A DNA stretch of 35,832 nucleotides from Leptolyngbya sp. (GTDB taxonomy: Bacteria > Cyanobacteriota > Cyanobacteriia > Leptolyngbyales > Leptolyngbyaceae): contig QBMH01000025.1 of the NCBI GenBank assembly GCA_003249025.1, forward strand, positions 1 to 35,832. Direction: 5' to 3'. The position numbers were made by a program, and so were the translations under genes. Positions 4,020-35,110 of this stretch are shown one piece after another. The notes under the pieces were generated by a model, which did no database searches, was not told the origin of the DNA, and saw only the letters and a list, made by a program, of their open reading frames with translations. Within the stretch, counting starts at the first letter, position 1, and the number at the start of each line of letters is the position of its first letter.

Positions 4020-4435
4020 AAAAAAGTGCGGAGTGCCAGGTAAGAAGTGGGACGTGCAAAATGCGAAGTAGTAAGCGGAAGATCACCATATAGAACACAG
4101 CGTACAATCATTTGCTATTCACCACCCGCTATTTACCCCCTGCTATTCATCAAGTGCCGACGAAGATACTCCAAGAAGAGGACAGCCGCAAGTTTATTCA
4201 ATTCCTGTCAGGAGTTTGGAGAGTTTGGAACCTAGTCGGCAGATCTTTAAAGAGAGGATAATTAAACTCCTAGTTCCTATTAGTTCCAATCTTTGTAAAA
4301 GTTTTGGGCTTTTTGGAACCCAGAGCATCCTTAAAAACTGCTGCCAAATTTTATAAAGCGGTGTAGATTGTCGTTAAGTTAATTAACCCTGCATGAATCT
4401 GTTGTTCTATTTCCCATTCTAGAAAGGAGCCGCGA
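4020..4435. other. Non-coding spacer with degenerate heptamer-like repeats
   Basis: No gene is supported here. From about 4025 to 4075 the sequence has a loose 7-bp periodicity (AGTGCGG, AGTGCCA, AGTGGGA and similar), of the kind found in short tandem heptamer repeats elsewhere in this window. Further on TTTGGAACC occurs twice (about 4222 and 4312). The spacer must hold the promoters for the response regulator and probably for the small gene at 4436. Confidence 0.45.
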
Positions 4436-4864
4436 GTGAATGCAGCCGAGCAGGCAAAAAGCCTGGAAACTGCCAGTAAAATAGCTGCGATCGTCAATTT
4501 ATTCAAGGCTGAGTTTCCCGATGCACGGGCTGACTTAAAGCCTTGGGCAAATGATCCTGATACGCGGGAATGGATTGATCCAGACTCGATCGACATTGCG
4601 TTTCATTTACCTGGATTTTCTCGGTTATTTCAAAGTCGTAGTATTTTGCTCCAGATTCGGTTTCATGATGATGGGTTGACCTCTGAGCGACGAGTGATTG
4701 GGGCAGAAATGGCAGGTTTTGATCATCGTGGCAAACAGTGGCGGCTTTCGACGGTTGAAAATTGGCTATTTGAGGGAAACTGTAGTCCGGTTATTCCAGT
4801 GAGCGATCGCCTGAAGGATTTTCTAAAGCAATCCCTGGCATTGTTCAATTCGCTGGAGTGCTGA
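4436..4864 (+). CDS. Hypothetical protein, 142 aa
   Basis: I do not recognise this family. The start is a GTG with a strong Shine-Dalgarno (AAAGGAG, 4423-4429) 6 nt upstream, which argues that it is a real gene. The product is soluble and mildly acidic, with no signal peptide or membrane segment. It opens with an amphipathic helix (about 3-26), followed by a Trp/Asp-rich middle (DPDTREWIDPDSID, about 40-53) and alternating hydrophobic strands to about 120. The composition looks like a small alpha/beta regulatory or adaptor protein. It lies just upstream of psbI on the same strand with a 155-bp gap, but that does not by itself imply a photosynthetic role. Confidence 0.7.
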   Translation: MNAAEQAKSLETASKIAAIVNLFKAEFPDARADLKPWANDPDTREWIDPDSIDIAFHLPGFSRLFQSRSILLQIRFHDDGLTSERRVIGAEMAGFDHRGKQWRLSTVENWLFEGNCSPVIPVSDRLKDFLKQSLALFNSLEC

Positions 4865-5019
4865 AGGGTAATCATTTTTCTGGACAAGGAGGATGCAGAA
4901 ATCCTGCGCGGTTTTAGAAAAAAGGATTTTTGAATCAAAGTCGCTAAGCACTATGATTGAATAGCGATTGACTCGTGCCAACCATTACATCGTATTTTTG
5001 ATATTTTCGGAGAATCTAT

Positions 5020-5136
5020 ATGCTCACACTCAAGATTGTTGTGTACATTGTTGTTGCCTTCTTCGTAGGGCTGTTTATTTTTGGCTTCCTGTCTAATGAC
5101 CCATCTCGTAACCCAAAACGCCGAGATATGGAATAG
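5020..5136 (+). CDS. psbI: Photosystem II reaction-centre protein PsbI
   Basis: This 38-residue peptide begins [12 protein letters not shown] and ends NPKRRDME. It matches PsbI along its whole length: an N-terminal transmembrane helix (about 4-25) followed by the conserved [12 protein letters not shown] tail exposed on the cytoplasmic side. PsbI is a single-span subunit of the photosystem II core next to D1 and CP43, and helps early assembly and stability of the D1 module in the thylakoid membrane. A GGAG at 5009-5012 sits 7 nt before the ATG. The gene appears monocistronic and is followed by a stable hairpin. The gene is short enough to be missed by length-filtered annotation, but the assignment is unambiguous. 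Confidence 0.97.
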
Positions 5137-5161
5137 CCAACCTTTGGTTTTGTCTCACCGA

Positions 5162-5199
5162 TGACATCGGGGCGGTAGTTTTCTGCTGCCCCGATGTCA
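5162..5199 (+). terminator. Hairpin after psbI
   Basis: A perfect 12-bp GC-rich stem (5162-5173 with 5188-5199, TGACATCGGGGC and its complement) encloses a 14-nt loop. It lies 25 bp after the psbI stop. There is no U-tract after it, so it may act as an RNA 3'-end stabiliser or a U-less terminator rather than a classic intrinsic terminator. Confidence 0.6.
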
Positions 5200-5250
5200 C
5201 GAGTAAGATATTGCCTCCGGGCTGTGTTTCGTTCAATGTTTGCTTAAACT

Positions 5251-8200
5251 ATGCCCTACTCGGTGCCCCCTGAACTCCCGCCTTTGCATTCGTCCCCAGC
5301 TCTTGAGACGATTCGCTGTTCAAAACTTTCCTTGTCAAGCGAGGCGATCGCACTGGCAAATGTGCTGTCTCCCGCGATTCGTAAACCGTTAGCAAAGCTT
5401 TCCGTAGGACTCCCTACGGCGATTGCTCCACCTGAGATAGAACGCTCCTCCTTCAAGACTGCGACTCTGCAAAGTGACTCCCTCGTTGGCATCGCTTCAT
5501 CCACCATTTCGCCTCTGCAAGGCAAGTTGCCGCACCAAACGATTGAACCTTGCGGGTCAACTTTAAGGAATGTTTCTCAGCCGTTGCCGCTACCGATATC
5601 AGTTAAAAATATCGCCAAACCCGAAAGCATTCCCTCAAAACTGTCGCTACCGATTGTTCCAGAGAGAGGAACCATACCGCTTGAGAAACAGGATGCAGTG
5701 TCTAACTTGGCACCCAGATTGACCCAAAAAGGGGTGGTTTTCCCAACGGCGATCGCCCAATCGCAAACTAATCAGTCAGCTCTCACGCCATCCCTGCCCT
5801 TAAGCCAATCAATTTCACGGTCTAAGTCTGCGGTACTTGCTCAAAGACTACCGACAGCAACCCCAAAAAAAGCTTTATCAGCCGAGTCTAGACGCTCCAA
5901 ATCTACTAAAAAGAGTGAAACGCCCATCAAACCGGGGATTCCCCTAGGACGTGTTTCAAAAGTTGCGCCCGCCAAAGTATCCACGCCCCAACCAGATTCC
6001 CTGTCCTACAGCATTTCCGGCGTGAGCGGTAAATTGCCTCAAACGGCTGAAGCTGCGGTGATGAAACGGCTCGATCAAGCATTTGTCTTCGATCAGTTAG
6101 TTGAGGTTTATGATGCGATCGGCTCACTCACCGCTAGAGATTTAAGAAGGCTAGCCAAGCGATCGCCCCGTCAAATCATTCCCCTGATTACCGCCCAAGT
6201 TCCTGATGCTCCAACTCCGCTCCAACCTCCCACAGAGATTCTGATTCCTCCAATCACTCCATCGAGTGCGCCTAGTGATCCCATTTTGCCGGGTGATACT
6301 CCTGCGAATCTAAATTCAGTCCCCCTCGTCGATCCACTGCCAACCGATCAAGTCCCTGTTTCAATTCTGCGGCAGATTGTCAGTGAAACCGTTACCAGTC
6401 CGACCGTCAACCCAGTTGAGGTAACGGCGGATCGGTTAGAGTATGACGAGCGTAATCAGGTATTCACGGCGGAAGGCAATGTGATCATGCGCTTTCAGAA
6501 TGGCTTGGTCGATGCCGATCGCGTTCAAGTAAACCTAGCAAACCGGATTGCCGTAGCAGAGGGCAATGTTGCCTTTACTCGTGGACGGCAAGTGCTGCGG
6601 GGGCAACGGACAGAATTCAATTTTGTCCAGGGGGTCGGCAGCATTCAGCAGGCACGGGGCGATATTTATATTCCTACCGCTGGAACCGATCTATCTACTC
6701 CAGCCGCAACCGATGGCGTGGCAGAAACGGTGTTGGGTCGTCCAGTCAGCGATCGCATTACCTCCCAACAGCCCCTCCAAAATCCGGCGGGCGCTGGAGG
6801 AGTTTCGATTTCAGCCGGAGCCGGACGAGATGTGACTCGTGTGCCGGGAGGGTTGCCGAAAGGCGGCGAACTCAAGCGCCTTCGGTTTGAAGCAGAGCGA
6901 ATTGACTTCACGCCAGAGGGCTGGGTTGCCACCAATATTCAAATTACCAATGATCCCTTCTCGCCCCCAGAACTGGTTCTGAAAGCAGAAAAAGCAACCC
7001 TAACGCGCCTGTCTCCGTTGCAAGATGAAGTGAAGCTGACTCGTCCTCGGTTGGTATTTGATCAGAAGCTTTCCCTACCGTTTTTATTCTCGCGTACGGT
7101 TTTAGATCGTCGCCAACGCGATGCTGCCCCGCTGCGCTTTGCCTATGATGCTCAAGATCGAGGTGGGCTTTACTTAGAAGGGGTTTTTAACGTTTTACGA
7201 ACCGATAAGATTTCCTTGACGCTCTATCCTCAAATTTTCATTCAACGGATGTTTGATAGTCGCCAAAGTGGTTTTGGGTTAGCCGATGCTAATAGTTATG
7301 GATTGAGAAGTCAGTTAGATGCTGATTTGAGTCCTAGTACCTTTTTGAAAGGATCAGTAGCCCTGACCAGTTTTGATCCGGCTCGGTTTGAAAATAGTTT
7401 ACGTGCCAGCGTGCGAGTTCGTCAGATCTTAGGTACGCCGATTGGTCCCCATACGTTGGCGTTGGAGTATAGCTATCGCGATCGCCTGTTTAATGGCTCC
7501 CTTGGCTTTCAAACGGTGCAAAGCAGCATCGGATTGCTATTGCTTTCTCCCAATATTTTGCTGGGGCAATCGGGCGTTGTTTTGAATTACCAGGTGGGCT
7601 ATCAGGCGATCAATTCAGACACCGATCGCCTGAATTTGCTCTCCCCTACCCGCACGAATAACCGGATCGATTTAGGACGCTTTCAAGCATCTGTTGAAGT
7701 GAGCAAAGTATTTCCGCTATGGGCAGGAAAACCGCTGCCATCAACTCGCGATCAAGGTCTCCGCTTCTCTGCAAACCCAATCGTGCCCTATCTCAACTTC
7801 AATACCTCTCTGCGCGGCGTGTATAGCAACTACACCAGCGGCGATGTGCAGCAAAATGTATTTGCGGTAGCTGGGTTAACGGGTCAGTTTGGACATTTTT
7901 CCCGTGATTTCTTGGACTACACTGCTTTTAGTGTTTTCTACAGTCAGGCGATCGGGACTGGCGCATCTCCTTTTCTGTTTGATCGAGTGGTCGATACTCG
8001 CATCGTATCCGCCTCATTCATTCAGCAGCTTTATGGTCCATTTCGCGCCGGATTTACCACAGCGATTAGCTTAGACACGAACGACCCCATCAGTACCGAT
8101 TACTTTTTGGAGTACAGCCGTCGCACCTATGGCGTTATAGTGCGATATAACCCAGTGCTAGAAATTGGTTCCATTACCCTGCGAATTAGTGACTTCAACT

Positions 8201-14397: not shown

Positions 14398-17300
14398 CTA
14401 GCTGTTTTTTTGGAGCAACCAATAAGTCGCCATTTCGCCTTTTCCTTTTACATCCACAATGCCCCGCCGCTCAAATTGATACTTGTCCTTTAAGCGTTGA
14501 TAGGTCGCTTCGGTGACTTGAATTTTTCCTGGAATGCCGTGCGATTCCATACGGTTGGCGATGTTCACGGTGTCACCCCAGAGATCGTAGGTGAATTTCT
14601 TTTTGCCGATCACCCCGGCAATCACGGAGCCTGTATTGATACCCACTCGGACGGCGATCGCGTGTCCTTCATAGGTGCGAAACTGATTGATCTCGTGCTG
14701 AATATCCAGCGCCATATTGGCGATCGCTTCAGCATGATCAGTGCGGGGATTGGGTAGCCCCCCGACTGCAAGGTAAGCATCTCCAATCGTTTTAATTTTT
14801 TCAATACCGTGCTTCTCGCACAGGTCATCAAACACTAGAAAAATCCGATTGAGTAATCCCACTAAATCTGCGGCGGAGATATTGGCAGATAGGTTAGTGA
14901 AGCTAACGATATCGGCAAACAGAACGGTCACTTGGTCATAGCTTTCGGCAATCAAAGCTTTGCTATTTCGTTGTTGCAGCAGATTAAGGCTTTGTTTAAG
15001 TTGATCGGCGATCGCTTGGGGTAACACGTTCAGCAGCAGTTTTTCCGAGCGTTCCTGTTCAATCGCCAGAGCTTCTTCCGACTGCTTGCGGAGAGTGATG
15101 TCTTCAATCACACCCAAAATGCCGATCACGTTTTGGTAGGAGTCGTGAATCGGAATTTTGCTAATGTCGAGCCAGGATTTTTCGCCATCAAGGGATCGAA
15201 CCTTGGGCGCAATGAAGTGGAGTTGGGGCGTATCGGTTTCAATAATGTGACGATCTTGGATGCGAAACTGTTCGGCGATCGCGGAATCGGGCACCAGGTC
15301 AAAATCGGTTTTGCCCACAATTTGATCAGGGTCATCCAGTTGAGCCGCTTCTGCCCAGTTTTGGTTGCAGCCCAAAAAGACCAGGTTGGTATCTTTCCAA
15401 AAAACCTGTTGGGGAATGTTATCTAAAATCAAGCGGAGGTATTGTTCTTTTTCCTGGAGGGCGGCTTCGGCACGCTTGCGATCGCTAATGTCAAAGCCGA
15501 TCGATAAAATTTCGTTAATCTCACCTTGCTCATCCAAAATGGCTTTGATCGACCACTTGACCCAGACGTTTTCTCCAGTGCTGCGAGAGTTTTCAGATTC
15601 CGCATCCTGGTAGTGTTCTGGGGTTTGACACAGTTGCTCAATCCAAAGTTGCAGGTTTTCCCAAGAGTCGGCTTGAGCCGGAACGAGGGTGCCAATAATG
15701 TTTTGTCCTAAAATTTCTTCTTCTGTATAGCCAAAAAACTCTTGTCCATAGCGATTTAAGAAGGTGATGTAACCACGCGTATTCCAGCGCAAGATAATGG
15801 TGTTGGCGGATTCTACTAGATCTCGATACTTTTTCTGGCTTTCAGCGATCGCGGCTTCTGCTCGTTTGCGATCCGTGATATCCTTCGTCACGGCGAGGAG
15901 ACAAAGTTCGCCTTCTAGCTCAATGATTTCCGCAGAGAGCAGGGCAGTCATCACGTCGCCATTTTTCTTGCGAAGCTGGATTTCTAAGTCTTTGATGTCT
16001 GCTTGCTCGGCAATCAGGCGGCGCAGTTCTGTGCGATCGGCGTGATTTGCCCAAGCGCCCAGATCAAACACGGTTTGACCCAACACTTCTGCATGGGTAT
16101 AACCAGAGGCTTCTAAGAAACTCTCGTTGACATCAATAAAACGTCCTGTTGCCAGGGAACTGATGGTGATGAAATCGGGAGACGCGCGAAAGGCTTTGGC
16201 AAACTTTTCTTGAGAAATATTGAGGGCAACTTCGGTGCGGCGGCGAGATTGGGCAGCAATTCCTAACGCAATCAGATCAGCGATGGAACGAGCAAAACTT
16301 TGCTCCTCTACCGTCCAGTGATGGTTTTGACCGACCTGCTCCAGGCATATAACTCCAATGGTGTGACCGCCAGAGCGAATAGGTGTGTCTAGCAGGGAGG
16401 TGATTCCGGTTGTTGTCAGATAAGAATCTACTAACTCGTGGGTGCGAGGATCGGTCTGAACCGTGTCGGCAGCAAGGGTCACTTCTTCTTCTAAAGCATT
16501 GAAATAGATCGGAAAATCAGCCGCTGTAAGTTGGGTTCCCGAAGTGTGTTGGTTGGGCGATCGCTGATATAAATCCAGACATTGCAGCGTGGTATGGGTG
16601 TCGTTAAACCGCCATACGCTGGCGCGTTCCACTTCTAAGGTGCGGGTGGCTGCCTCCGTAATTTGTTGGAGTGCAGCCTCTAGATTCCCCTCATTCAACA
16701 CCGTACTTTTTGCTAGTTCTAGTAAAACCCGGTTTTGCTTTCGCACTTGGCGATCGCTTCGGTGGAGGGCTGCCTCCGCTTGCAGCCGTTCAGCCTCTCT
16801 AGATTTCTGTTCACTCACATCTCTGGCGACCCAAATGACCGTCTCTGGCGACAACGGCGACACATTTGCAGAGAACCAGAGTTCCTGATTATCCACAATC
16901 AGGCAGTATTCCACATTCACTACTTGCCCAGTCTGTAAGGCTTGCTGAATTCCTTGCACAACCAGATCGGCTTGATCCTCTGGCATGATCTCATGAGCAG
17001 TCTTGCCGATTTGCTCTGATTCAGGGCTAATTAGTTGGGTTGGATGGGTGGAGACAATTTTCAGAAACTGCCCGTCTTTGTCATAGACAATGACAAGATC
17101 GGTCATGGCGGCAAACAAAGCTCTGAGTTCGGCTTCGGCTTCTGCCAAGGAAGCCGTGCGCTCTTGCACCCGCTGCTCTAAACTGGCATTGGTTTGCTCT
17201 AGGGTGGCAAATGATTCCTGCAACTGCTGAGCCATGCGATTAAAGGAGTTTGCCAGGGTTTCGAGTTCGGTAATTCCTTTTGCTTGCACATTTTGATGAA

Positions 17301-18522
17301 GTTGTCCGTTGGCAAGAGCTTCTGAGGCGCGGCTAAGCTGCAAAATTTGGTGGGCAATCCAGCGAGAGGTAGGAATGCCAAATAGGGTTGCAGCGGCTAG
17401 GGCGATCGCGCAGCCTAGTAAAGTGTTGCGAGTATTCGCGTGAATCTGCCCCATAAAGTCGGTTTCGGGCACCACAACCACGATCAACAAATCCAAGCCA
17501 TGGGCATCTTTCCAGGGCATGACTAGCAAAAATTGGCGCTGATCGTGTAGATGAAATTCCAGCTTTTCAGTTTGATTGATCTGATCCAGACTGCCAAAAG
17601 TGTTGATCAGGAAATGGGTGCTGTCGCGAATCAGCGGATCAGCACTTTCGATCGCCTTGAGGCGAAAGGCTTTGCCGTTGACGATACGAAATGGTTTTTC
17701 AGTTTTTGACGAGGTGGCAACCAGTTTTCCAGATCGCTCTAGGATAAAGGTTTCTCCAGTTTTGCTGACTTGAATACTTGCCAGAAAGTCGCTAATTTGA
17801 GTCAAAATTTGGTCTACACCCATCACTCCCAGCAATTTCCCGGTTTTGCTGTATAGGGGATGGTTGGCGCTGATAGACATCACCTCTGGCTTATCATCCC
17901 AGTTGTAGATGGAACTCCAGGCAGGTTTGCCGATTTTCTCGCCGTCTGCATACCAGCCTTCATTCAAGGGGTTGTAGTCTGGAGTGATTTTGATCATCTT
18001 GGCGCGATCGCCTTGAGGAGTAGTCGAAAATGTATATTGTTGGTTTTTCGTTCGAGCAGATTTCTCGTTAATCAGCAGTTCACCGCTATCTAGTCGCTCA
18101 ACCCCAATAAAATCGCCCTGCGGATTGGCATAGCTAATATAACCCACATTAAATATTTTCATTTGTCGCCAAAAATATTTGCCGGTCACATCAAAATTTT
18201 GGAGGTTTAACAGCCGTAGCTCAATTGCATCCGCATTGGTGCGGTTCAATTGGAATGGAGTTGCCAAATAATCATCTAAGTGCTGATGAATCCGGCTAAC
18301 CGATTCATTGCGAACCTGGGTCGCCACTTCATTCACTGCTTTCTGCCCATTTTGGTGAGACAGAAAGCCAACTGCGACAACGGCTCCGACCACCTGAATC
18401 ACCAAGGGCACAGCCATGACTAAACCGAGCGGAACCTTTTTCACAGCATTCGATTGAGAATTCGCCAAAAAATGGGACAACGCAGGCAGCTTATTTAAGA
18501 CCATTGCGAGGGTATCCACCAT
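14398..18522 (-). CDS. Membrane-bound class III adenylyl cyclase with Cache, HAMP, PAS and GAF domains
   Basis: A 1374-residue receptor cyclase. In order: transmembrane helix (about 33-55), an extracellular dCache-type sensor (about 60-350, with YANPQGDFIGVERL and a VMGVDQILTQ element), a second helix (about 366-386), HAMP (387-440), coiled coil, PAS (about 465-580), GAF (about 605-765), three more PAS domains (about 785-1160) and the cyclase domain (about 1165-1374). The cyclase has VLFADIVSFT with the metal-binding aspartates, KIKTIGDAY and YDLWGDTVNIANRM. Lys in the first and Asp in the second substrate position indicate ATP, not GTP. It should raise cAMP in response to an external small molecule, possibly modulated by GAF/PAS ligands. 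It is similar in plan to cyanobacterial Cya proteins, but I assign no letter. Confidence 0.93.
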   Translation of the reverse strand: MVDTLAMVLNKLPALSHFLANSQSNAVKKVPLGLVMAVPLVIQVVGAVVAVGFLSHQNGQKAVNEVATQVRNESVSRIHQHLDDYLATPFQLNRTNADAIELRLLNLQNFDVTGKYFWRQMKIFNVGYISYANPQGDFIGVERLDSGELLINEKSARTKNQQYTFSTTPQGDRAKMIKITPDYNPLNEGWYADGEKIGKPAWSSIYNWDDKPEVMSISANHPLYSKTGKLLGVMGVDQILTQISDFLASIQVSKTGETFILERSGKLVATSSKTEKPFRIVNGKAFRLKAIESADPLIRDSTHFLINTFGSLDQINQTEKLEFHLHDQRQFLLVMPWKDAHGLDLLIVVVVPETDFMGQIHANTRNTLLGCAIALAAATLFGIPTSRWIAHQILQLSRASEALANGQLHQNVQAKGITELETLANSFNRMAQQLQESFATLEQTNASLEQRVQERTASLAEAEAELRALFAAMTDLVIVYDKDGQFLKIVSTHPTQLISPESEQIGKTAHEIMPEDQADLVVQGIQQALQTGQVVNVEYCLIVDNQELWFSANVSPLSPETVIWVARDVSEQKSREAERLQAEAALHRSDRQVRKQNRVLLELAKSTVLNEGNLEAALQQITEAATRTLEVERASVWRFNDTHTTLQCLDLYQRSPNQHTSGTQLTAADFPIYFNALEEEVTLAADTVQTDPRTHELVDSYLTTTGITSLLDTPIRSGGHTIGVICLEQVGQNHHWTVEEQSFARSIADLIALGIAAQSRRRTEVALNISQEKFAKAFRASPDFITISSLATGRFIDVNESFLEASGYTHAEVLGQTVFDLGAWANHADRTELRRLIAEQADIKDLEIQLRKKNGDVMTALLSAEIIELEGELCLLAVTKDITDRKRAEAAIAESQKKYRDLVESANTIILRWNTRGYITFLNRYGQEFFGYTEEEILGQNIIGTLVPAQADSWENLQLWIEQLCQTPEHYQDAESENSRSTGENVWVKWSIKAILDEQGEINEILSIGFDISDRKRAEAALQEKEQYLRLILDNIPQQVFWKDTNLVFLGCNQNWAEAAQLDDPDQIVGKTDFDLVPDSAIAEQFRIQDRHIIETDTPQLHFIAPKVRSLDGEKSWLDISKIPIHDSYQNVIGILGVIEDITLRKQSEEALAIEQERSEKLLLNVLPQAIADQLKQSLNLLQQRNSKALIAESYDQVTVLFADIVSFTNLSANISAADLVGLLNRIFLVFDDLCEKHGIEKIKTIGDAYLAVGGLPNPRTDHAEAIANMALDIQHEINQFRTYEGHAIAVRVGINTGSVIAGVIGKKKFTYDLWGDTVNIANRMESHGIPGKIQVTEATYQRLKDKYQFERRGIVDVKGKGEMATYWLLQKNS

Positions 18523-19977: not shown

Positions 19978-22188
19978 CTAAGAAACTAACTCAACGGCTC
20001 GTTTTGCGATCGCTTCTGGAGTGATGCCGTTGAGCGCCATCAGTTCGGTAGCACTAGCCGTAGTTTCGCCGCGCTTCCAGGCAAAGATGTCGCGTTTGGC
20101 AGTGCTGCGGAGCATCACGGGTTCTAGCATGGCGCTGGCTCCGCCGATTACACCGATGAGGGCATCGCCACTAAACAGGCGATCTAATCCGGCATCATCC
20201 AAAAAGCCACCATCTGCTTCAGAGCAGATTTCCCATGCTACATCGGTCGGGCGATAGAGTCGGCGCGGACTGACGATCGCCACAATCCGAACGCCGAATC
20301 CTTGGGCTTCTAGCTGTTTAGCCGCTTCAAATACCGGGTTCAGAATCATGTCGCCAATCACCGCAAAGACGATAGTTTTGCTCCCCTGGCTTTCGTGTAG
20401 GGCGATCGCGCCATCTTCGAGTGCCTGCCGCGTTTGCTCAAACGTAGTGCGAATCGGTAACGGCGATTTGCTGGCAGTGATGACAATGCCTTTGTTTTGC
20501 GTGGTCAAACCCCAGTCGTAGCAAACCTGAATGCTGTTGGCATCGGGCGGAAACAGCGGAAATACATTGCCATTTCGCATCATCGCCGCAAAGTAAGCTT
20601 CAATTTCGGGACGTTGATGCGTCCAGCCATTGCGTCCTTGCTCTAGTGCGCCTGCGGTAAATAGGGTGATGGTGGATGGCGTGGGGCGACGCAATTCTGC
20701 CATTGCCTGGATCACTGTTTGCCAAATGGGTAAGCCGTTGATTGCAAAAGATTCGTAGGAACACCAGAGCGTCCGGCAGCCAAACAAAGCTAAGCCTGCC
20801 GCCAATCCTGCACAAGCATCTTCGCTCAGCGGTTCATAGACTTGCCCGATCGGGTTTTGGTTATACAGCGGGTCTGCCGTGGGATGAATGATTTTGAGCG
20901 CTTGGTTGATGTTGGCAATGCCGGAAGCCTCGTTGCCATCGGCGTTGGTGACCAGGTAGCTCGGATCGGTTTGCCCCACGTAGCCCACCAGTTTACCCAT
21001 GGCGGTGGTGGAAATCTTGGGGTCGCCGCCTACAGTAAATTCTTCTAGGGGGAGTGTTCCTAGGTCGGGGAGCGATCGCACAAATTCGGTGACTACAGTT
21101 TTACTCGCTGGTCCGCCCCCGGCTCTCTCGCAGTTGGTTCGCACCAAATCCCATGCTTCGGTGGTCAACGCACGGGTTTGTAGCGCACTCACAATATCAG
21201 GATTCTCTAACGTGTGGTGGGCGTAAAGATTGTGAGATTTGGCACCCCGCGCATGAACTCCAGCCCCCTTCAGTTGCTTGATGATAAAAACCGTGAGTGT
21301 ACCGTTCAGTGCGGACTCTGCCGCTTTTGCCATGCCTTCCAAGACAGCTTGAGTGAACGCCAATCGCTGTTTAAAGGAAAAAACCGTGCTGTCTACAAAA
21401 TCGCCCGGTTGATCTTGGTCATCAAACTCTTTGGCATCCACTAGCACGACCTGATCAAACCCATTGCCGCGCCAGTATGCCACCATGCGATCGCTGGATA
21501 GCGTAGACACCATGCTGTGATGCTCTTGGGAAAAGCCATTCCACACCAGCACGGGCAAAAAATTAGTGGCATGGGGAAACGCAGTATGGAAATGCGCCAT
21601 CGAGCTGACGATGTAAGGTTCACCCAAACCGCCATCTCCCACGGTGAAGGGGAACAGCTTATCGGGATTGAGCAATGCACCCGCCATGGCGAAATGTTGC
21701 CCCTGACCCAACGGTCCTGCTGGAGCGAGCAGTCCGGGAATTTGACCGGACAGGTGACCGAGTAATCCATGGCGTTCCCGGTAGCGATCGCGCAACTGCT
21801 GCACGGTTTCAATGCCCATATCTTCCAGGGAGCGATCCAAAAACATGGCGCTGTAGAATCCCGGCGCATGATGCCCGACTTCCGTCACAAAGTTTTTGTG
21901 CCCCAACATCACAAGTGCCGCGTAAGCTTCAGCTTGGCTGGCAAACCCGCCTGGATGCCCCGATGCTTTGCTGGCAGTCACTTGCAGCGTCAGGTAGCGC
22001 AACGCATCCGCATAGAGCAATGTTTGATAAATAGCACAGGGATCATTCGGCGCAGTGATGGCAGTTTTGCCGTCTAGAATCGCGGGCATAATCCCGTAGC
22101 GATCGAACTCAGGATAGGAATCAGTAAAATATTGAATTCCCTCACAAAAGGCTGGAGCGGATTTGGGGTTCGGAGTAACTGCCGTCAT
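19978..22188 (-). CDS. Phosphoketolase/transketolase-type thiamine-diphosphate enzyme
   Basis: A 736-residue ThDP-dependent enzyme. The ThDP/Mg motif starts with GDG (184-186) and ends at N217 in LVWNGF. SGHPGG (76-81) and GHHAPG (105-110) hold the expected active-site histidines. The PP-domain neighbour EPLSEDACAG (452-461) followed by LWCSYESF parallels the LSEHQCEG/SSYEAF signature of xylulose-5-phosphate/fructose-6-phosphate phosphoketolase, with E456 as the cofactor-activating glutamate. It is about 60 residues shorter than classic phosphoketolases and diverges in the N-terminal domain, like the second phosphoketolase-like protein of Synechocystis (Sll0529 type). The likely reaction is cleavage of sugar phosphate to acetyl phosphate, bypassing glycolysis, but substrate and even transketolase activity are not settled by sequence. 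The gene is monocistronic. Confidence 0.82.
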   Translation of the reverse strand: MTAVTPNPKSAPAFCEGIQYFTDSYPEFDRYGIMPAILDGKTAITAPNDPCAIYQTLLYADALRYLTLQVTASKASGHPGGFASQAEAYAALVMLGHKNFVTEVGHHAPGFYSAMFLDRSLEDMGIETVQQLRDRYRERHGLLGHLSGQIPGLLAPAGPLGQGQHFAMAGALLNPDKLFPFTVGDGGLGEPYIVSSMAHFHTAFPHATNFLPVLVWNGFSQEHHSMVSTLSSDRMVAYWRGNGFDQVVLVDAKEFDDQDQPGDFVDSTVFSFKQRLAFTQAVLEGMAKAAESALNGTLTVFIIKQLKGAGVHARGAKSHNLYAHHTLENPDIVSALQTRALTTEAWDLVRTNCERAGGGPASKTVVTEFVRSLPDLGTLPLEEFTVGGDPKISTTAMGKLVGYVGQTDPSYLVTNADGNEASGIANINQALKIIHPTADPLYNQNPIGQVYEPLSEDACAGLAAGLALFGCRTLWCSYESFAINGLPIWQTVIQAMAELRRPTPSTITLFTAGALEQGRNGWTHQRPEIEAYFAAMMRNGNVFPLFPPDANSIQVCYDWGLTTQNKGIVITASKSPLPIRTTFEQTRQALEDGAIALHESQGSKTIVFAVIGDMILNPVFEAAKQLEAQGFGVRIVAIVSPRRLYRPTDVAWEICSEADGGFLDDAGLDRLFSGDALIGVIGGASAMLEPVMLRSTAKRDIFAWKRGETTASATELMALNGITPEAIAKRAVELVS

Positions 22189-28319: not shown

Positions 28320-31300
28320 TCAATCACCGGATGGGTCTTTTCGCATCGCCCAGTGAATCTCTTTTAATAAATCTGTCATGTTGGTCGGGGCAACCAAAAC
28401 TTGGGTGGCAAGCTGTGTAATCCTGTCGGGTAAGGGAGCAGGTGTGGAGGAGGCTTGATGGTGGCGATGATCCAAGATGAGCATGGGGGGCGGTTGATCT
28501 AAGGATTCTAGAGACGACAGGAGCGCGATCGCGTCCGATTCAGGTGCATCGCTAGTCCAACAAATCAACAATAAATCGACACTTTGAGCCTGAATTTGCT
28601 GCATGACTTCTTGCCAAGACTGCTTGATCTCACTGCGTAGTCCGGCGGTTTGAAGATAGTGAGTCAGAGCTTGCAGCCATTCCACTTGTTTTGGGGAGTT
28701 AGGCAATGTTTCTAAGGTTGCGTGAATGGTCGCAGCGACGGGATCGGTCGCCATCAGCAAGGTAGAAATATCTACTGCTAAAACTGACGGTTGCCAAGCT
28801 GAGCTAGCCGCAATCTGAAGCACTTGTAACAGCGTTGCAGGGATAACCTCTTCAGAAAAGGTCGTTGTGGCTGGGGCTAGATAGGGAAACACGAGCAAGC
28901 CAGGAATTTGACTAGCGGCTTGAGTCACTGCTGAATCGAGGGTTACCAAGGGCAGGGCAGACAAGGACGGGTAATGGCTTAATTGTTTTAGATAATCGGC
29001 TGGAGCCGACAGGGAACCCTCCAACAAAACGACATGAGGCTTCCACACCCGCGCCAATAGCTCGGCTTGCTCTAGATCATCCGATTCTAAAATGCGATAG
29101 CGATGGGATTGGAGCAGATGATTCAAATCTTCTAAGGGGGTTGAGTCGCGATCGCTCGGTGCATCCAAATATAACCGTAAAATTGTCAGGTTTGTGATGG
29201 GGCGATCGCGAAAAATGGGCGACTCTGTTTCGATCAAAAGCGTTTTCAAGGTTTGTTCCAACACCTTGATTTGAATCGGTAAATTCATAAATCCATTCGC
29301 ATGGCACCGATAGGCTGCTGCTTCTTCAACCTGCGTTGACATGACCACCACCGGCAGATGCTGGGTTTCTGTATTGGACTTGAGCAACGTCAGCACATCC
29401 CAACCCGATAGTAAGGGCAGCAACGGATTCAGAAAAATGATGCAGGGCTGCAACCGCCGCGCTTTTTCTAATGCCTCGGTGCCAGAGCGAGCAATTACAA
29501 CCCGATACCCTAAGCTCCCTAGCTGATCTGATAGCGTTTCGATCGCCTGCGGCACACCTTCCACAATCAAAATCAAGCGATCGCGGCGAACCGAACCACT
29601 CACTCCCGGCTGTATATCTGCCCTAAAACGATCCGGTGGCAAATAAATGGGCGATCGTCCCCCCAGCCATTCTCCCGATTCAGCAAGCCCATTGCCATCC
29701 TCCGCCTCATCTTGATAAGAGAAAGGTGCTTTGTTGGGTGGCAGCGGCGGCAACAATACGGTAAATTGGCTCCCTTCATCTTCTTTAGACAAAAAGGTGA
29801 CATCCCCGCCGTGCAATCGAGCCAATCGCCGCGTTAACACCAACCCCAACCCTGCCCCTTCAAACTGGCGCGTCAACGGGTTTTCAAGCTGCTGAAATTT
29901 TTGAAAGATTAGGTGCTGCTTTTCCGCTGGAATGCCAATGCCTTGATCCCAAACCGTAAATGCAATCCAGCCACCCCAGCGGTTCACCTTTAAGCCAATG
30001 GGCTTACCGGGTTCTGTAAACTTGAGCGCATTCGACAGGAGATGAATCAGCATTTGGCGTAGTCGCAGTTCATCCGCAACGAAAATGTCTAGTCCAGGCG
30101 TAATCTCCAGTGAGAATTGAGCCGTTAACTGCTCGTCGGTTGGAGGATCTTCTGATTTACTTTCTAAGAAACGCAGTTGCTTCGCTTGCTCAAACGCCTG
30201 AGCGCATACAACCTCGATCTGAACGGGTGCAAACAACAGTTGCAATTGCCCCGTTTCAATTCGCGTTAAGTCTAAAATATCGTTCACCACGGTCATCAAG
30301 TGGCGGCTACTTTGGTAAATCAGTTGGGCATACCGTACCTGTCGCGGATTCAGTTCACCTAACGTTTGATCTTTGAGCAGACTGGACAAACCCAAAACAG
30401 CAGTCAGAGGAGTTTTTAGCTCATGACTAATACAGGCTAGAAACTCATCTTTGAGCCGATTCAGTTGGATCAGATCCGCATTCTTGGCGGTCAGTTCATG
30501 GGCTAACTGCTGTTGTTCAGTCACATCCTGGGCTTGCACGAGCCAGAGTGCTTCAGTCCCGATTTCAAGCGTTTTCTGCCATGGTTCATCCACCAAAGTG
30601 CTTTGAGAACCTGCATATCTGGACAGACTCGCGTTGCTAGATTCACCTGTTTCTGTACTGGAGGGATTAGCATCGGAAGTCAGGTCAGCCAATCGGAACG
30701 AGCCAACCTGAGATGGGCTTGTCTGGGAAAAAAGTGGTGGAGCGGTTTGGGACAAGGGATTTGACCAGTCTAAATTCCAGCCTGGCAACAATGTGCAAAG
30801 TGGAATTTTAATAAACTGCAATACCCGTTCCTGTCCATCCTTCAAAGGACACAAACACACACAGCTATCGGGAGAAGTTCCTAAATAACAGAGGTTTGGG
30901 TCTGCTAGAGACGGGTTTGCATCCAGTTCTCCCAATAGTTGAGACGCTTCTTGGCGAATCCATCCCGGATCAAGCAAGTCTCCTACTTGACTACGCCAAG
31001 TGGAGTTTTGGGCTAACACAGTGCCACTTTGGGTTTGCAACATGAGGGGCAGGGGCAGGCGTTCTAATAACTCCAATAATGAGTTGAATAATGCAGCTTG
31101 AGAGGGGGGCGCTGAAAGGGCTGTGAGTTGGGTGCTTGACGAAGAAGGATTTAGGCTTATGGGTTGGTTCTGCTGCCGCAGTTGATTAATTTCATTTTGT
31201 TGAGTTTTAAGGCGCTGCTCTAGCTCGGCGCGTTGAGCGAATAACTGTTGAGTAAGCTGAATAATTTGGCGTTGTTGAGGATCTGAGTGAATGCTCGTTG

Positions 31301-31811
31301 GTGCGTCTTGGGGCACTGGGGATAAAAAGGCAGGCAAATACGGCGCAGAAGCTATTTCAGTTGGATCGGAGGCAGTAGGCTCTTCCGTGAATAGCTGGAA
31401 CACCCGTTCAATATCCAAAAGCCCCAAAACTTCGCCTGTGCCGTTGATCAAGGCGATCGCTTCTGAGTCGGGAAGTTGCACCCGCATCATCAGTTGGGAG
31501 AGTTGCCACTCGGCGGGCACGAGAATGATCGGTTCGATCACGGAGGGCGCGATCGCGGTAATGGGTGCAGCCAATATCGGCGGCAAGGCTAGGGGAGAAA
31601 GTGACGCAGGACTTTCAGACGAAAGCAGCAGTTGGGGGAGCAGGCGATGTAATTTGACGACCCCCATCGGCTGCTGCTGCGAATCCAAAATGATTAAGCG
31701 ATCGCATTGGCTGCGGCTTAATGCCGTTAACGCTACTTGAATCGTTACCGTGTTTGGAAAAACCGGAACAAAATATACCAACTCACTCAAGCAGATATTA
31801 GGCAGAAGCAT
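28320..31811 (-). CDS. CBS-domain hybrid histidine kinase with three degenerate receiver domains, divergent from kaiA
   Basis: About 1163 residues; numbering here starts at a TTG two codons before the preferred ATG. In order: a CBS pair (about 15-145), coiled coil (178-218), a PAS-like region with a Ser/Thr-rich insertion (240-435), HisKA with H465 in SHELKTP, and HATPase_c with N596, DQGIGIP (624-630) and GAGLGL (654-659). Three receiver-like domains follow (about 748-862, 877-1005, 1010-1160). The kinase core looks active. In receiver 1 the phospho-acceptor position is N797 and the conserved lysine is L846; receiver 2 has E933, and receiver 3 probably C1086, at the aspartate position. All three should therefore be pseudo-receivers. 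CBS domains commonly bind adenine nucleotides. The gene is divergent from kaiA across a 399-bp spacer, suggesting a clock link like that of CikA, though this is inference. Confidence 0.88.
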   Translation of the reverse strand: MLLPNICLSELVYFVPVFPNTVTIQVALTALSRSQCDRLIILDSQQQPMGVVKLHRLLPQLLLSSESPASLSPLALPPILAAPITAIAPSVIEPIILVPAEWQLSQLMMRVQLPDSEAIALINGTGEVLGLLDIERVFQLFTEEPTASDPTEIASAPYLPAFLSPVPQDAPTSIHSDPQQRQIIQLTQQLFAQRAELEQRLKTQQNEINQLRQQNQPISLNPSSSSTQLTALSAPPSQAALFNSLLELLERLPLPLMLQTQSGTVLAQNSTWRSQVGDLLDPGWIRQEASQLLGELDANPSLADPNLCYLGTSPDSCVCLCPLKDGQERVLQFIKIPLCTLLPGWNLDWSNPLSQTAPPLFSQTSPSQVGSFRLADLTSDANPSSTETGESSNASLSRYAGSQSTLVDEPWQKTLEIGTEALWLVQAQDVTEQQQLAHELTAKNADLIQLNRLKDEFLACISHELKTPLTAVLGLSSLLKDQTLGELNPRQVRYAQLIYQSSRHLMTVVNDILDLTRIETGQLQLLFAPVQIEVVCAQAFEQAKQLRFLESKSEDPPTDEQLTAQFSLEITPGLDIFVADELRLRQMLIHLLSNALKFTEPGKPIGLKVNRWGGWIAFTVWDQGIGIPAEKQHLIFQKFQQLENPLTRQFEGAGLGLVLTRRLARLHGGDVTFLSKEDEGSQFTVLLPPLPPNKAPFSYQDEAEDGNGLAESGEWLGGRSPIYLPPDRFRADIQPGVSGSVRRDRLILIVEGVPQAIETLSDQLGSLGYRVVIARSGTEALEKARRLQPCIIFLNPLLPLLSGWDVLTLLKSNTETQHLPVVVMSTQVEEAAAYRCHANGFMNLPIQIKVLEQTLKTLLIETESPIFRDRPITNLTILRLYLDAPSDRDSTPLEDLNHLLQSHRYRILESDDLEQAELLARVWKPHVVLLEGSLSAPADYLKQLSHYPSLSALPLVTLDSAVTQAASQIPGLLVFPYLAPATTTFSEEVIPATLLQVLQIAASSAWQPSVLAVDISTLLMATDPVAATIHATLETLPNSPKQVEWLQALTHYLQTAGLRSEIKQSWQEVMQQIQAQSVDLLLICWTSDAPESDAIALLSSLESLDQPPPMLILDHRHHQASSTPAPLPDRITQLATQVLVAPTNMTDLLKEIHWAMRKDPSGD

Positions 31812-32210
31812 GATCAATTGCGCCGTGAAGGAAGGTGAAGCCGGATGTACTCAATAACCCTCCAGGTTTTATAAGCTTTTTAATCGCGCTCTATTTCTGA
31901 GAATGATCTATTCAAGCAAAGCGACCCATGGAAAAACTGAATGCAAAAAGAAATGTAAGGATGAACGCCACTTTTTTGGATCAGCGACGTGAATCAGCAA
32001 AATTTAATGGAGAATAATGAACAAGTACTCGATTAAAACTTCAGACCCCATTATGGAGGCGGATTGGGCAGAACAGGCAGACAATTATAATTAATTAAAG
32101 TTGTGCCTGTGTGCAAGACGCAGCAGCCAATGTCGTCGTCGTTTCTGATTCCATAACTGACTCTAGAATGGCTTTTTCTCACTCTTAACGCTATTGACTT
32201 TTTAAAAACT
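31812..32210. other. Divergent intergenic region between the CBS-kinase gene and kaiA
   Basis: No gene is supported in this roughly 400-bp region. It holds the presumed promoters of both flanking genes, including a good sigma-70 type promoter toward kaiA at 32064-32091. AT-rich patches (31866-31880, 32083-32098) are frequent. I could not identify a known clock-output element such as an RpaA site by eye. Confidence 0.6.
32064..32091 (+). promoter_or_regulatory. Likely sigma-70 promoter of kaiABC
   Basis: A -35 element TTGGGC (32064-32069) and a perfect -10 element TATAAT (32086-32091) are separated by 16 bp and point toward kaiA. Transcription would start near 32098, leaving a leader of about 110 nt before the kaiA start. 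Confidence 0.6.
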
Positions 32211-33104
32211 TTGTCCCCCAAACTTTCGATTGGTCTATTTCTAAACCCTGATTTTGCAGCCCAAGCTTTTTTAGAGGCTTTAAATCACGATCGCTATCAC
32301 GTTGCCCTTCACACTGCCAGCGATACATTTTGCGAGTCTATTGAGCAAGAAAAACAACAGCTTGATTGCCTGATTCTCCAGAATGGTTCAGCGCTACCTC
32401 ATTTGGTCAACTGGTTGCATGGTCAGGTGATTGTCTTACCCGCCGTGATTTTACACACCGGGCTGGATGGGATGCCATCCAATCATGATTTTGCTCATGA
32501 ACATGATTCTTCCGGGCGATCGCCGTTCACCTATCACACCGCCGAATTCCACACGACCCCCGCCCAATTTGTGCTAACCGATGATGTAGCGGAGCAGGCG
32601 ATCGCCCGATTTATCCATCTTTCGCCCAACTGCCGAATTAGCAGTTCCGTGGAGGCAGAAGTCGCGATCGATGCAGCCACCCAAACCTTGCTCATGCTCC
32701 AGCAACAGCGCCGCCTCACAGACAAACTCAAAGAACGCCTGGGGTATTTAGGCGTATATTACAAACGCAATCCCCAAAACTTCTTCCGTCGCCTATCCCA
32801 TGAGCAACAGCAGGAGCTATTAGAAAAGCTCAAAGCCGACTATCGAGACATCATCCTGTGCTACTTCACAAACGGTGGTACGCTAAATCAGCGGATTGAC
32901 GACTTTGTTAACACGTCCTTTTTTGCAGATATGTCAGTGCCCCAAGTCGTTGAAATTCATATGGAATTAATCGACGAAATCTCTAAACAATTAAAATTAG
33001 AGGGACGCAGCGAAGAAATCCTATTAGATTATCGGCTGACATTGATCGACATCATTGCCCACTTGTGCGAAATGTATCGCCGCTCAATTCCGCGAGAACC
33101 CTAG
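32211..33104 (+). CDS. kaiA: Circadian clock protein KaiA
   Basis: A full-length 297-residue KaiA. Residues 1 to about 135 form the N-terminal pseudo-receiver domain; the C-terminal helical domain (about 180-292) is highly conserved (ERLGYLGVYYKRNPQNFFRRL, VVEIHMELIDE, EGRSEEILLDYRLTLIDIIAHLCEMYRRSIPRE). KaiA binds the KaiC C-terminal tail as a dimer and stimulates KaiC autophosphorylation, until KaiB-KaiC captures it. The chosen start is a TTG: it aligns with the family start (the SPKLSIGLFL strand corresponds to LSQIAICIWV of Synechococcus KaiA) and no in-frame ATG or GTG lies upstream before a stop. No Shine-Dalgarno is visible, so low translation efficiency is possible. It is not the short KaiA seen in Nostoc relatives. 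First gene of the kai operon. Confidence 0.96.
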   Translation: MSPKLSIGLFLNPDFAAQAFLEALNHDRYHVALHTASDTFCESIEQEKQQLDCLILQNGSALPHLVNWLHGQVIVLPAVILHTGLDGMPSNHDFAHEHDSSGRSPFTYHTAEFHTTPAQFVLTDDVAEQAIARFIHLSPNCRISSSVEAEVAIDAATQTLLMLQQQRRLTDKLKERLGYLGVYYKRNPQNFFRRLSHEQQQELLEKLKADYRDIILCYFTNGGTLNQRIDDFVNTSFFADMSVPQVVEIHMELIDEISKQLKLEGRSEEILLDYRLTLIDIIAHLCEMYRRSIPREP

Positions 33105-33148: not shown

Positions 33149-33460
33149 ATGCCACTGAAGAAAACCTACGTTCTGAAACTGTATGTTGCAGGCAACACAC
33201 CAAACTCCATTCGAGCGCTAAAAACCCTCAACAATATTCTTGAAGAAGAGTTTAAGGGCGTGTATGCGCTCAAAGTAATTGATGTTTTGAAAAATCCGCA
33301 GTTAGCCGAAGAAGACAAGATTTTGGCAACCCCCACCCTGGCAAAAATTTTGCCGCCGCCCGTTCGCAAGATCATTGGTGATTTATCCGATCGCGAAAAA
33401 GTGCTAATCGGGCTAGATTTACTTTATGAAGAACTGCGGGAAAAAGAAGCTAACGCATAA
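33149..33460 (+). CDS. kaiB: Circadian clock protein KaiB
   Basis: A 103-residue thioredoxin-like metamorphic protein. It shows the family core [18 protein letters not shown], then [24 protein letters not shown], the [15 protein letters not shown] segment and an acidic C-terminal tail ([11 protein letters not shown]). KaiB switches to its rare fold to bind the KaiC CI ring at night, sequesters KaiA, and controls the output kinases SasA and CikA. The cis-proline in ATPTLAK and the two prolines in LPPPVRK, involved in fold switching, are present. The gene starts 44 bp after kaiA and ends 99 bp before kaiC. Length matches the KaiB family (about 102-108). Confidence 0.98.
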
Positions 33461-33559: not shown

Positions 33560-35110
33560 ATGAATGAATTGAATCCACAAAACCAGAGCGGCATCACCGC
33601 CGCCGGGGTGGACAAAATCCGCACGATGATCGAAGGGTTTGATGATATTAGTCATGGCGGCTTGCCCATTGGCAGAACAACCCTCGTGAGCGGCACCTCT
33701 GGCACCGGAAAAACACTCCTCGCCGTCCAATTTTTATATAACGGCATTGTTGATTTTGACGAGCCTGGTGTCTTTGTCACCTTTGAAGAGTCTCCCGCCG
33801 ATATTATCAAAAATGCCTTTAGCTTTGGCTGGGATCTCCAGAAATTTGTGGATGAAGGCAAGCTGTTTATTTTGGATGCTTCCCCCGATCCAGATGGGCA
33901 GGATGTGGTGGGCAATTTTGATCTCTCAGCGCTGATCGAGCGGATTCAATACGCCATTCGCAAATATAAAGCTAAGCGCGTTTCGATTGATTCCGTTACG
34001 GCAGTATTTCAACAATATGATGCTGCCTCGGTGGTGCGGCGAGAAATTTTTCGGATTGTGGCGCGGCTGAAGCAAGTGGGTGTGACCACGATTATGACTA
34101 CGGAGCGGGTGGATGAATATGGGCAAGTTGCTCGCTTTGGCGTAGAAGAATTTGTCTCGGATAATGTGGTGATTTTGCGAAATGTGCTGGAGGGTGAACG
34201 CCGCCGCCGCACAATCGAAATTTTGAAACTGCGCGGCACGACCCATATGAAGGGAGAGTATCCGTTTACGATGACGCGGCAAGGGATTAATATCTTTCCG
34301 CTGGGAGCGATGCGGTTGACTCAGCGATCGTCGAATGTGCGCGTGTCGTCTGGCGTGAAAACTTTGGATGAAATGTGTGGCGGTGGCTATTTCAAAGATT
34401 CGATTATTCTGGCGACGGGCGCAACGGGAACGGGCAAAACGATGCTAGTTAGCAAGTTTTTGGAAGAAAGCTGCGTTAAGGGTGAACGGGCGATCTTGTT
34501 TGCCTATGAAGAGTCCCGCGCTCAACTATCGCGGAATGCCTATTCTTGGGGAATTGATTTTGAAGAGTTGGAACAGCAGGGCTTACTGAAAATTCTCTGT
34601 GCGTATCCAGAGTCGGCAGGGTTGGAAGATCATCTGCAAACGATTAAGCAGGAGATTGCGGATTTTAAGCCGGCTCGAATTGCGATCGATTCTCTATCGG
34701 CGATCGCCCGTGGAGTCAGCAACAACGCCTTCCGCCAGTTTGTGATTGGCGTAACCGGGTTTGCCAAACAAGAAGAAATCACAGGCTTTTTCACCAATAC
34801 GACCGACCAATTTATGGGGTCAAACTCCATCACCGACTCCCACATTTCCACCATCACCGACACGATTTTGATGTTGCAATATGTGGAAATTCGGGGCGAA
34901 ATGTCTCGTGCCATCAACGTATTCAAAATGCGCGGGTCTTGGCATGACAAAGGCATCCGGGAATACACGATTAGCGATCACGGTCCCGAAATTAAGGACT
35001 CGTTCCGCAATTTTGAACGGATTATCAGTGGGTCACCGACCCGAATTGCTGTGGATGAAAAAACGGAACTATCTCGAATTATTCGCGGCGTGCAGCGCGA
35101 TGAAGAGTAG
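33560..35110 (+). CDS. kaiC: Circadian clock ATPase/autokinase KaiC
   Basis: A 516-residue double-RecA protein, the hexameric core of the clock. CI has the Walker A GTSGTGKT (about 45-52) and the catalytic pair in FVTFEES; CII has GATGTGKT (about 287-294) and AYEESRAQL. The phosphorylation sites are S430 and T431 in SITDSHISTITDT, equivalent to S431/T432 of Synechococcus KaiC, with no insertions or deletions from there back to about residue 21. The C-terminal A-loop and tail, where KaiA binds, are present but two residues shorter (ending IRGVQRDEE). CI slow ATPase sets the period; CII undergoes the phosphorylation cycle. Third gene of the operon; the tandem repeat before its ATG replaces a normal ribosome binding site. 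Confidence 0.99.
   Translation: MNELNPQNQSGITAAGVDKIRTMIEGFDDISHGGLPIGRTTLVSGTSGTGKTLLAVQFLYNGIVDFDEPGVFVTFEESPADIIKNAFSFGWDLQKFVDEGKLFILDASPDPDGQDVVGNFDLSALIERIQYAIRKYKAKRVSIDSVTAVFQQYDAASVVRREIFRIVARLKQVGVTTIMTTERVDEYGQVARFGVEEFVSDNVVILRNVLEGERRRRTIEILKLRGTTHMKGEYPFTMTRQGINIFPLGAMRLTQRSSNVRVSSGVKTLDEMCGGGYFKDSIILATGATGTGKTMLVSKFLEESCVKGERAILFAYEESRAQLSRNAYSWGIDFEELEQQGLLKILCAYPESAGLEDHLQTIKQEIADFKPARIAIDSLSAIARGVSNNAFRQFVIGVTGFAKQEEITGFFTNTTDQFMGSNSITDSHISTITDTILMLQYVEIRGEMSRAINVFKMRGSWHDKGIREYTISDHGPEIKDSFRNFERIISGSPTRIAVDEKTELSRIIRGVQRDEE

Follow-up and report, generated by a model that had tools for sequence, protein, structure and literature searches.

Most of what is understood of the cyanobacterial circadian clock comes from S. 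elongatus, in which KaiABC is linked to RpaA by CikA and SasA. The pseudo-receiver domains of KaiA and CikA are established clock input modules; CikA and KaiA compete for a site on KaiB, and CikA also responds to oxidised quinone and has RpaA as a target (review PMC7766417). Receiver folds with Asn at the phospho-acceptor position are also known among the ALR domains, for example RitR, with Asn53 (PMC4395418).

Here we describe a kinase encoded next to kaiA in a 35,832-nucleotide stretch of Leptolyngbya sp. DNA (hereafter, the window). Its likeness to CikA consists of a HisKA/HATPase core followed by receivers without a working phosphorylation site, in a clock context; its likeness to SasA, the KaiC-binding output kinase, is that of a clock-tied HisKA kinase and candidate RpaA partner. 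CikA has a GAF domain, whereas the kaiA-linked kinase has a CBS pair, a Cys-bearing PAS-like domain, three pseudo-receivers and a location at kaiA. Unlike the described ALR domains, its pseudo-receivers form a tandem of three at the C-terminal end of a kinase, with an Asn that is conserved family-wide. Its best NCBIfam score is to the HrmK-type hybrid kinases (NF038297; 268.8 bits over the kinase and first receiver), far under the 725-bit cut-off, and thus denotes general hybrid-kinase similarity only. Foldseek aligns about 280 columns of the tandem receivers of PleD with the first two pseudo-receivers, REC1 and REC2, but the kaiA-linked kinase has no GGDEF output and REC1 has no acceptor Asp.

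No description of this kinase was found in the open-access literature, although earlier mention elsewhere is possible. The parts seen of papers on synteny and clock components do not discuss it, and Anabaena all2883, presumably the kaiA neighbor in that organism, appears in the open-access literature only in a list of predicted CRP sites. Hybrid kinases and pseudo-receivers are already known; a widespread kaiA-linked family with such an architecture is, provisionally, new. Because the kinase stands at kaiA in roughly three quarters of sampled loci and is absent in the model organism, any input or output wiring that it provides would be invisible there, and the kinase is possibly a clock component that has been missed.

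The kinase gene and its kaiABC neighbors

The kinase open reading frame (28320..31817, minus strand) encodes 1165 residues, with TTG as the listed start and a possible ATG at 31811, and is the single strong full-length match in its own genome. An intergenic region of 393 bp (31818..32210) separates it from kaiA (32211..33104, plus strand; KaiA 3e-63, KaiA_N 1.3e-30), which encodes an N-terminal pseudo-receiver and a C-terminal domain. Downstream, also on the plus strand, lie kaiB (33149..33460) and kaiC (33560..35110). The locus is therefore as an earlier preliminary description of this DNA had it, with the kinase divergent from kaiA beside a full kaiABC operon. A simple, weak scan of the 393-bp region for sigma-70-type promoters found none.

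Linkage to kaiA across cyanobacteria

A scan of named genomes with KaiA returned 80 loci, of which L047, L069, L092 and L095 were left out for want of upstream DNA. A divergent homolog of the kinase lies beside kaiA in 67 of the remaining 76 loci, in hosts that include Nostocaceae, Hapalosiphonaceae, Scytonemataceae, Oscillatoriaceae, Microcoleaceae, Leptolyngbyaceae, Pleurocapsaceae and the reduced endosymbionts of diatoms. The nine named loci without it are L051, L062, L067, L072, L074, L076, L077, L078 (decayed) and L087. A second sample comprised 291 genomes of the class, 260 of them with kaiA; among 190 kaiA loci examined, all outside the marine picocyanobacteria, 147 have the divergent kinase beside kaiA. 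This count combines 85 of 95 loci scored by coordinates, 40 of 40 approached from the kinase side (39 with the kinase within 2.5 kb of kaiA; in the remaining one, L189, the two share a contig but lie farther apart) and 22 of 55 in which a diverged copy of the kinase is still oriented divergently from kaiA. Several of the remaining loci are contig breaks, and in others the gene has moved elsewhere. The clock role had originally been proposed in part from position, and on this point the survey is favorable: the linkage is conserved over much of the phylum.

Regions 4.1 kb beyond the kinase and beyond kaiC served as a control: a homologous open reading frame was common to only 2% and 3% of locus pairs, respectively; gene order around the cluster has thus been scrambled while the kinase stays. 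The region between kinase and kaiA is mostly short, about 50–1700 bp across loci. Among the best 150 kinase matches, 148 fall in kaiA-positive genomes, and the other two, G274 and G289, are incomplete MAGs in which the kinase lies close to the end of a contig; since kaiA is already so common in the sample, this presence/absence association is weak evidence.

Individual loci show variant forms. The diatom endosymbionts of Epithemia and Rhopalodia (L064, L065, L089) have kaiABC and a kinase of 841–861 residues with intact ATP boxes; in L078, by contrast, the kinase gene is the decayed one noted above. In L085 and L210, an Alkalinema-type kinase beside kaiA is split into two open reading frames, representing a recent frameshift, a pseudogene or an assembly error.

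Absent and relocated copies

The two S. elongatus-type genomes (L119, L120) gave no match to the family next to kaiA; upstream of kaiA, L119 has rplU and truB. Genome G052 was assigned to the S. elongatus type from the match of its CikA pseudo-receiver to PDB 2j48 (1.8e-60). S. elongatus has a robust clock, and the kinase must therefore be dispensable to the oscillator. Relocated copies persist away from kaiA in six genomes (G043, G067, G164, G214, G049 and G241). Some Leptolyngbyaceae without the kinase have a plus-strand open reading frame of about 1200 residues directly upstream of kaiA (L062, L067, L072, L077, L132, L133); in L133 the gene in the kinase's place (4297-7896) encodes a B12-dependent methionine synthase.

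A candidate case of joint loss of kaiA and the kinase was rejected: G154 lacks kaiA, standard kaiC and the kinase, all three of which are present in its congener G287, but one missing locus in a 220-contig assembly is indistinguishable from an assembly gap. In a mirror-tree comparison of the kinase with KaiA and KaiB given KaiC, a weak test dominated by phylogeny, the partial correlation between the kinase and KaiB was about 0.

Sensory N-terminal half

The preliminary description had read a CBS pair and a PAS domain in the protein. The CBS pair (residues 8–148; 31374..31796, minus strand) is sub-threshold by Pfam in the window protein itself (0.14); CBS is, however, matched in 38 of 49 orthologous N-termini, and the AF2 model superimposes on CBS-pair structures with Z about 13 over 120–137 residues (rmsd about 3). 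With two CBS repeats, the segment is a Bateman module, and this part of the reading stands. The CBS fold suggests adenylate sensing. Within the pair, cysteines are common in the family at residues 20 and 38 (window about 31701-31760, minus strand): C20 occurs in 46 of 49 orthologs (Phe in the window protein) and C38 in 38 of 49.

A long helix or coiled coil is predicted at residues 180–216 (31170..31280, minus strand) in the AF2 model of residues 1–449, followed by a PAS-like domain at residues 240–435 (30513..31100, minus strand) with a large, low-confidence loop that is modeled as disordered. The PAS fold is read from the AF2 secondary structure; Pfam gives weak PAS matches in just one or two family members. 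This domain contains a cysteine motif, C310-x8-C319-x-C321-x-C323 (30849..30890, minus strand). C310 is conserved in 44, C319 in 40 and C321 in 43 of 49 orthologs, and C323 is present in the window protein. Across the 126 aligned family members, C310, C319 and C321 are all present in 66 and all absent in 38; C310 occurs alone in 18, with few other intermediates. This largely all-or-none CX8CXC pattern is what cysteines of a putative shared metal or thiol site would show.

Kinase core and repeated loss of the ATP site

The core comprises a HisKA/DHp domain (residues 456–523; 30249..30452, minus strand; Pfam 4e-18), with H465 in the motif HELKT (30423-30425), and a HATPase_c domain (residues 582–691; 29745..30074, minus strand; Pfam 8e-26). 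Besides the phospho-acceptor His, the N, G1 and G2 boxes of a HisKA histidine kinase are present (N596, D624, G654), and the claim of an intact core was accurate for the window protein. The ATP site is not kept throughout the family. The phospho-acceptor His is kept in 126 of 126 aligned members, whereas at least one of N596, D624 and G654—mostly all three—is lost in 28, leaving 98 ATP-intact. The ATP-dead copies belong to Thermosynechococcus-like, two Leptolyngbyaceae-related and Pleurocapsaceae groups, together with G044, and the KaiC tree forces at least three independent losses. These copies are still located at kaiA. In one of them (L128), Pfam still matches HisKA and no longer HATPase_c.

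In HisKA kinases, an acidic residue at His+1 is required for kinase activity and Thr/Asn for phosphatase activity (PMC3510030). The residue at His+4 (T469 in the window protein) is Thr, Ser or Asn in all 126 family members, and the His+1 acid is lost in 11, every one of them ATP-dead. Retention of the His and the +4 residue despite ATP-site loss is the trace that would be expected of a phosphatase- or docking-type DHp function, with the caveat that Ser at +4 differs from the classical Thr/Asn. Mean identity over 49 orthologs is 0.87 for HisKA, 0.81 for HATPase and 0.69 for REC1; the HATPase value, together with the ATP boxes intact in 98 of 126, indicates that catalysis is under selection in most lineages.

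Three pseudo-receivers

The C-terminal third contains REC1 (residues 749–862; 29232..29573, minus strand; Pfam Response_reg 749–856, 2e-13), REC2 (residues 876–1006; 28800..29192, minus strand) and REC3 (residues 1010–1160; 28338..28790, minus strand), the latter two assigned from AF2 and a receiver profile. Neither REC2 nor REC3 of the window protein has a Pfam match; the generic receiver profile matches them at 5.6e-9 and 3e-6, respectively. The AF2 model of the C-terminal 423 residues (mean pLDDT 81) shows three successive (beta-alpha)5 domains, so that the receiver fold that had been read from the sequence is predicted for all three. Structural alignment of REC1 with ordinary receivers gives Z about 21; the VIA-align match lists were taken up by REC1 and CBS matches, and the absence of CikA and KaiA structures from them carries no weight.

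At the acceptor and Lys positions, the window protein has N797/L846 in REC1 (Asn797 at 29427-29429), E933/F977 in REC2 (Glu933 at 29019-29021) and C1086/A1143 in REC3 (Cys1086 at 28560-28562), in agreement with the Asn, Glu and probable Cys first proposed. Leu846 lies immediately N-terminal of the conserved Pro847, and REC1 has a conserved beta3-alpha3 face with the sequence NPxLPxLSGWDVLTLLK. The domains thus combine a receiver fold with replacement of the acceptor Asp, as in aspartate-less receivers, and no C-terminal receiver of the window protein has the Asp and Lys of a phosphorylatable domain. The Asn of REC1 is a family trait of the kaiA-linked kinase: it is invariant in the 65 rows of one alignment, and in the 98 ATP-intact orthologs the acceptor is Asn in 90, Ser in 7 and Asp in 1, with Leu at the Lys position in 78. 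Seven members have Lys in REC1, and their acceptor is then Ser or Asn. Asp in REC1 occurs in the relocated copy L138:2318-5377 (G043), unlinked from kaiA, and in its congener L291 (G067), both without the Lys; the kaiA-linked ATP-intact copies that were read do not have it. The Glu of REC2, by contrast, is true of the window protein and not the family state: 77 of the 98 have Asp, accompanied by Phe or Tyr at the Lys position. The absence of a usable aspartate is accordingly qualified by the Asp often kept in REC2, and is upheld in that Asp and Lys co-occur in neither REC1 nor REC2 of any of the 98 ATP-intact orthologs. In REC3, the acceptor is Cys in 55 orthologs.

REC1, REC2 and REC3 are under purifying selection (dN/dS 0.13–0.15 in comparison with the same-genus genome G041). 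With REC1 at a mean identity of 69%, the pseudo-receivers are maintained rather than decaying. REC3 was considered and rejected as the source of the N-terminal pseudo-receiver of KaiA: it scores 29.2 with KaiA_N (shuffle maximum 21.1) and 32.9 with the generic receiver profile, the higher generic score pointing to ordinary receiver similarity.

Relation to CikA and SasA

Among S. elongatus-type proteins, the kinase core matches CikA best (47% identity, E 1.5e-53; protein checked against 2j48), which could suggest that the kaiA-linked kinase is a CikA ortholog or a paralog with duplicated pseudo-receivers. This origin is extremely improbable. In a kinase-core tree, 17 sampled family members form one clade (100/100) and 30 CikA cores another (100/99), with other kinases between them, and CikA orthology was rejected on this tree. 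Both genes are present in many genomes, and none of 49 N-termini of the kaiA-linked family has a Pfam match to GAF. REC1 is closer to generic receivers (score 138) than to CikA pseudo-receivers (100), so that its loss of Asp is most simply independent of that in CikA. The analogy with CikA drawn in the preliminary description is weaker than proposed: receivers without a working site are shared, but the clade is separate and REC1 has a closer affinity to ordinary receivers.

In the window's genome (G000), no CikA-type pseudo-receiver was found at E 1e-8; its CikA-like kinase (L223) has a canonical C-terminal receiver, in which both Asp and Lys are present. The kaiA-linked kinase also falls below the SasA model: NF006800 gives it 114.3 bits against a cut-off of 342, and the same genome has a separate SasA above the curated cut-off on another contig. 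The SasA match (L302; G000:C174:11485-12273) contains one in-frame TAA.

Proposed role in the clock

The linkage makes it likely that the kaiA-linked kinase is functionally tied to the clock, probably as a regulator that works through its DHp domain. The details of this tie are less certain. We tentatively propose, at rather less than even confidence, that the kinase is an accessory regulator of KaiABC of ancient origin, encoded as the divergent partner of kaiA. A detailed scheme for such a regulator, which we consider doubtful to tentative, would have adenylate and redox inputs, docking of the pseudo-receivers to Kai proteins and DHp action on RpaA. The CBS pair and the Cys-bearing PAS-like domain would respond to adenylates and redox state. 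The tail of three pseudo-receivers may serve for protein docking and so let Kai proteins (fold-switched KaiB, if CikA is the guide) set the state of the DHp dimer. CikA offers a precedent for such a tail, and KaiB binding by the kaiA-linked kinase is putative. As its conserved output, the DHp domain would act on a response regulator, for which RpaA is the first candidate; the most plausible activity is that of a phosphatase or of a bifunctional kinase/phosphatase. Lineages without ATP binding would keep just a phosphatase or docking function. The repeated loss of ATP binding with retention of the His provides a testable prediction of such a role. The absence beside kaiA in S. elongatus-type genomes, the relocated copies, the position of REC1 away from CikA, the non-classical Ser at +4 and the KaiB correlation near zero were all counted against the clock-regulator reading.

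Linkage to kaiA could stem from shared regulation alone. The kinase might then be a metabolic or redox hybrid kinase that shares a bidirectional promoter with kaiA and is clock-driven without contacting Kai proteins, its pseudo-receivers restraining its own kinase domain. The divergent layout across a mostly short intergenic region, the copies that survive away from kaiA and the CBS and PAS-like inputs, which suit a metabolic sensor, are all consistent with this alternative, which is possible but somewhat doubtful. Against it, nearly every pair of loci differs in the genes lying next outward, so that a shared promoter alone would need to hold the kinase and kaiA together phylum-wide; moreover, ATP-dead copies remain at kaiA, and the simple, weak scan recognized no shared promoter. 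The ATP-dead copies would in turn suit a pseudokinase scaffold or relay, in which the protein's own HATPase is optional and the essential element is either the DHp His, shuttling phosphate, or the DHp dimer, partnering another kinase. The loss of ATP boxes in 28 of 126 members with the His and +4 residue kept, and the Pfam pattern of L128, point in this direction, but the intact boxes of the other 98 and the HATPase identity of 0.81 make it quite improbable.

If the kinase is nonetheless an accessory clock regulator, as tentatively preferred here, a stronger form of that proposal would make it a fourth component of most cyanobacterial clocks, with a Kai-docking tail, an ATP-optional DHp phosphatase on the output regulator and adenylate and redox input. 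We regard this form as unlikely; on it, the kinase would have gone unstudied because the model S. elongatus is without it.

Other genes in the window

Two further genes of the window, both on the minus strand, lie away from the kaiABC cluster. The first (14398-18522) encodes a 1374-residue sensor with Cache, HAMP, GAF, several PAS and adenylate/guanylate cyclase domains. The other (19978-22188) encodes a diverged phosphoketolase-like protein of 736 residues that matches XFP weakly (1e-10 to 1e-12) and may represent a separate subfamily.
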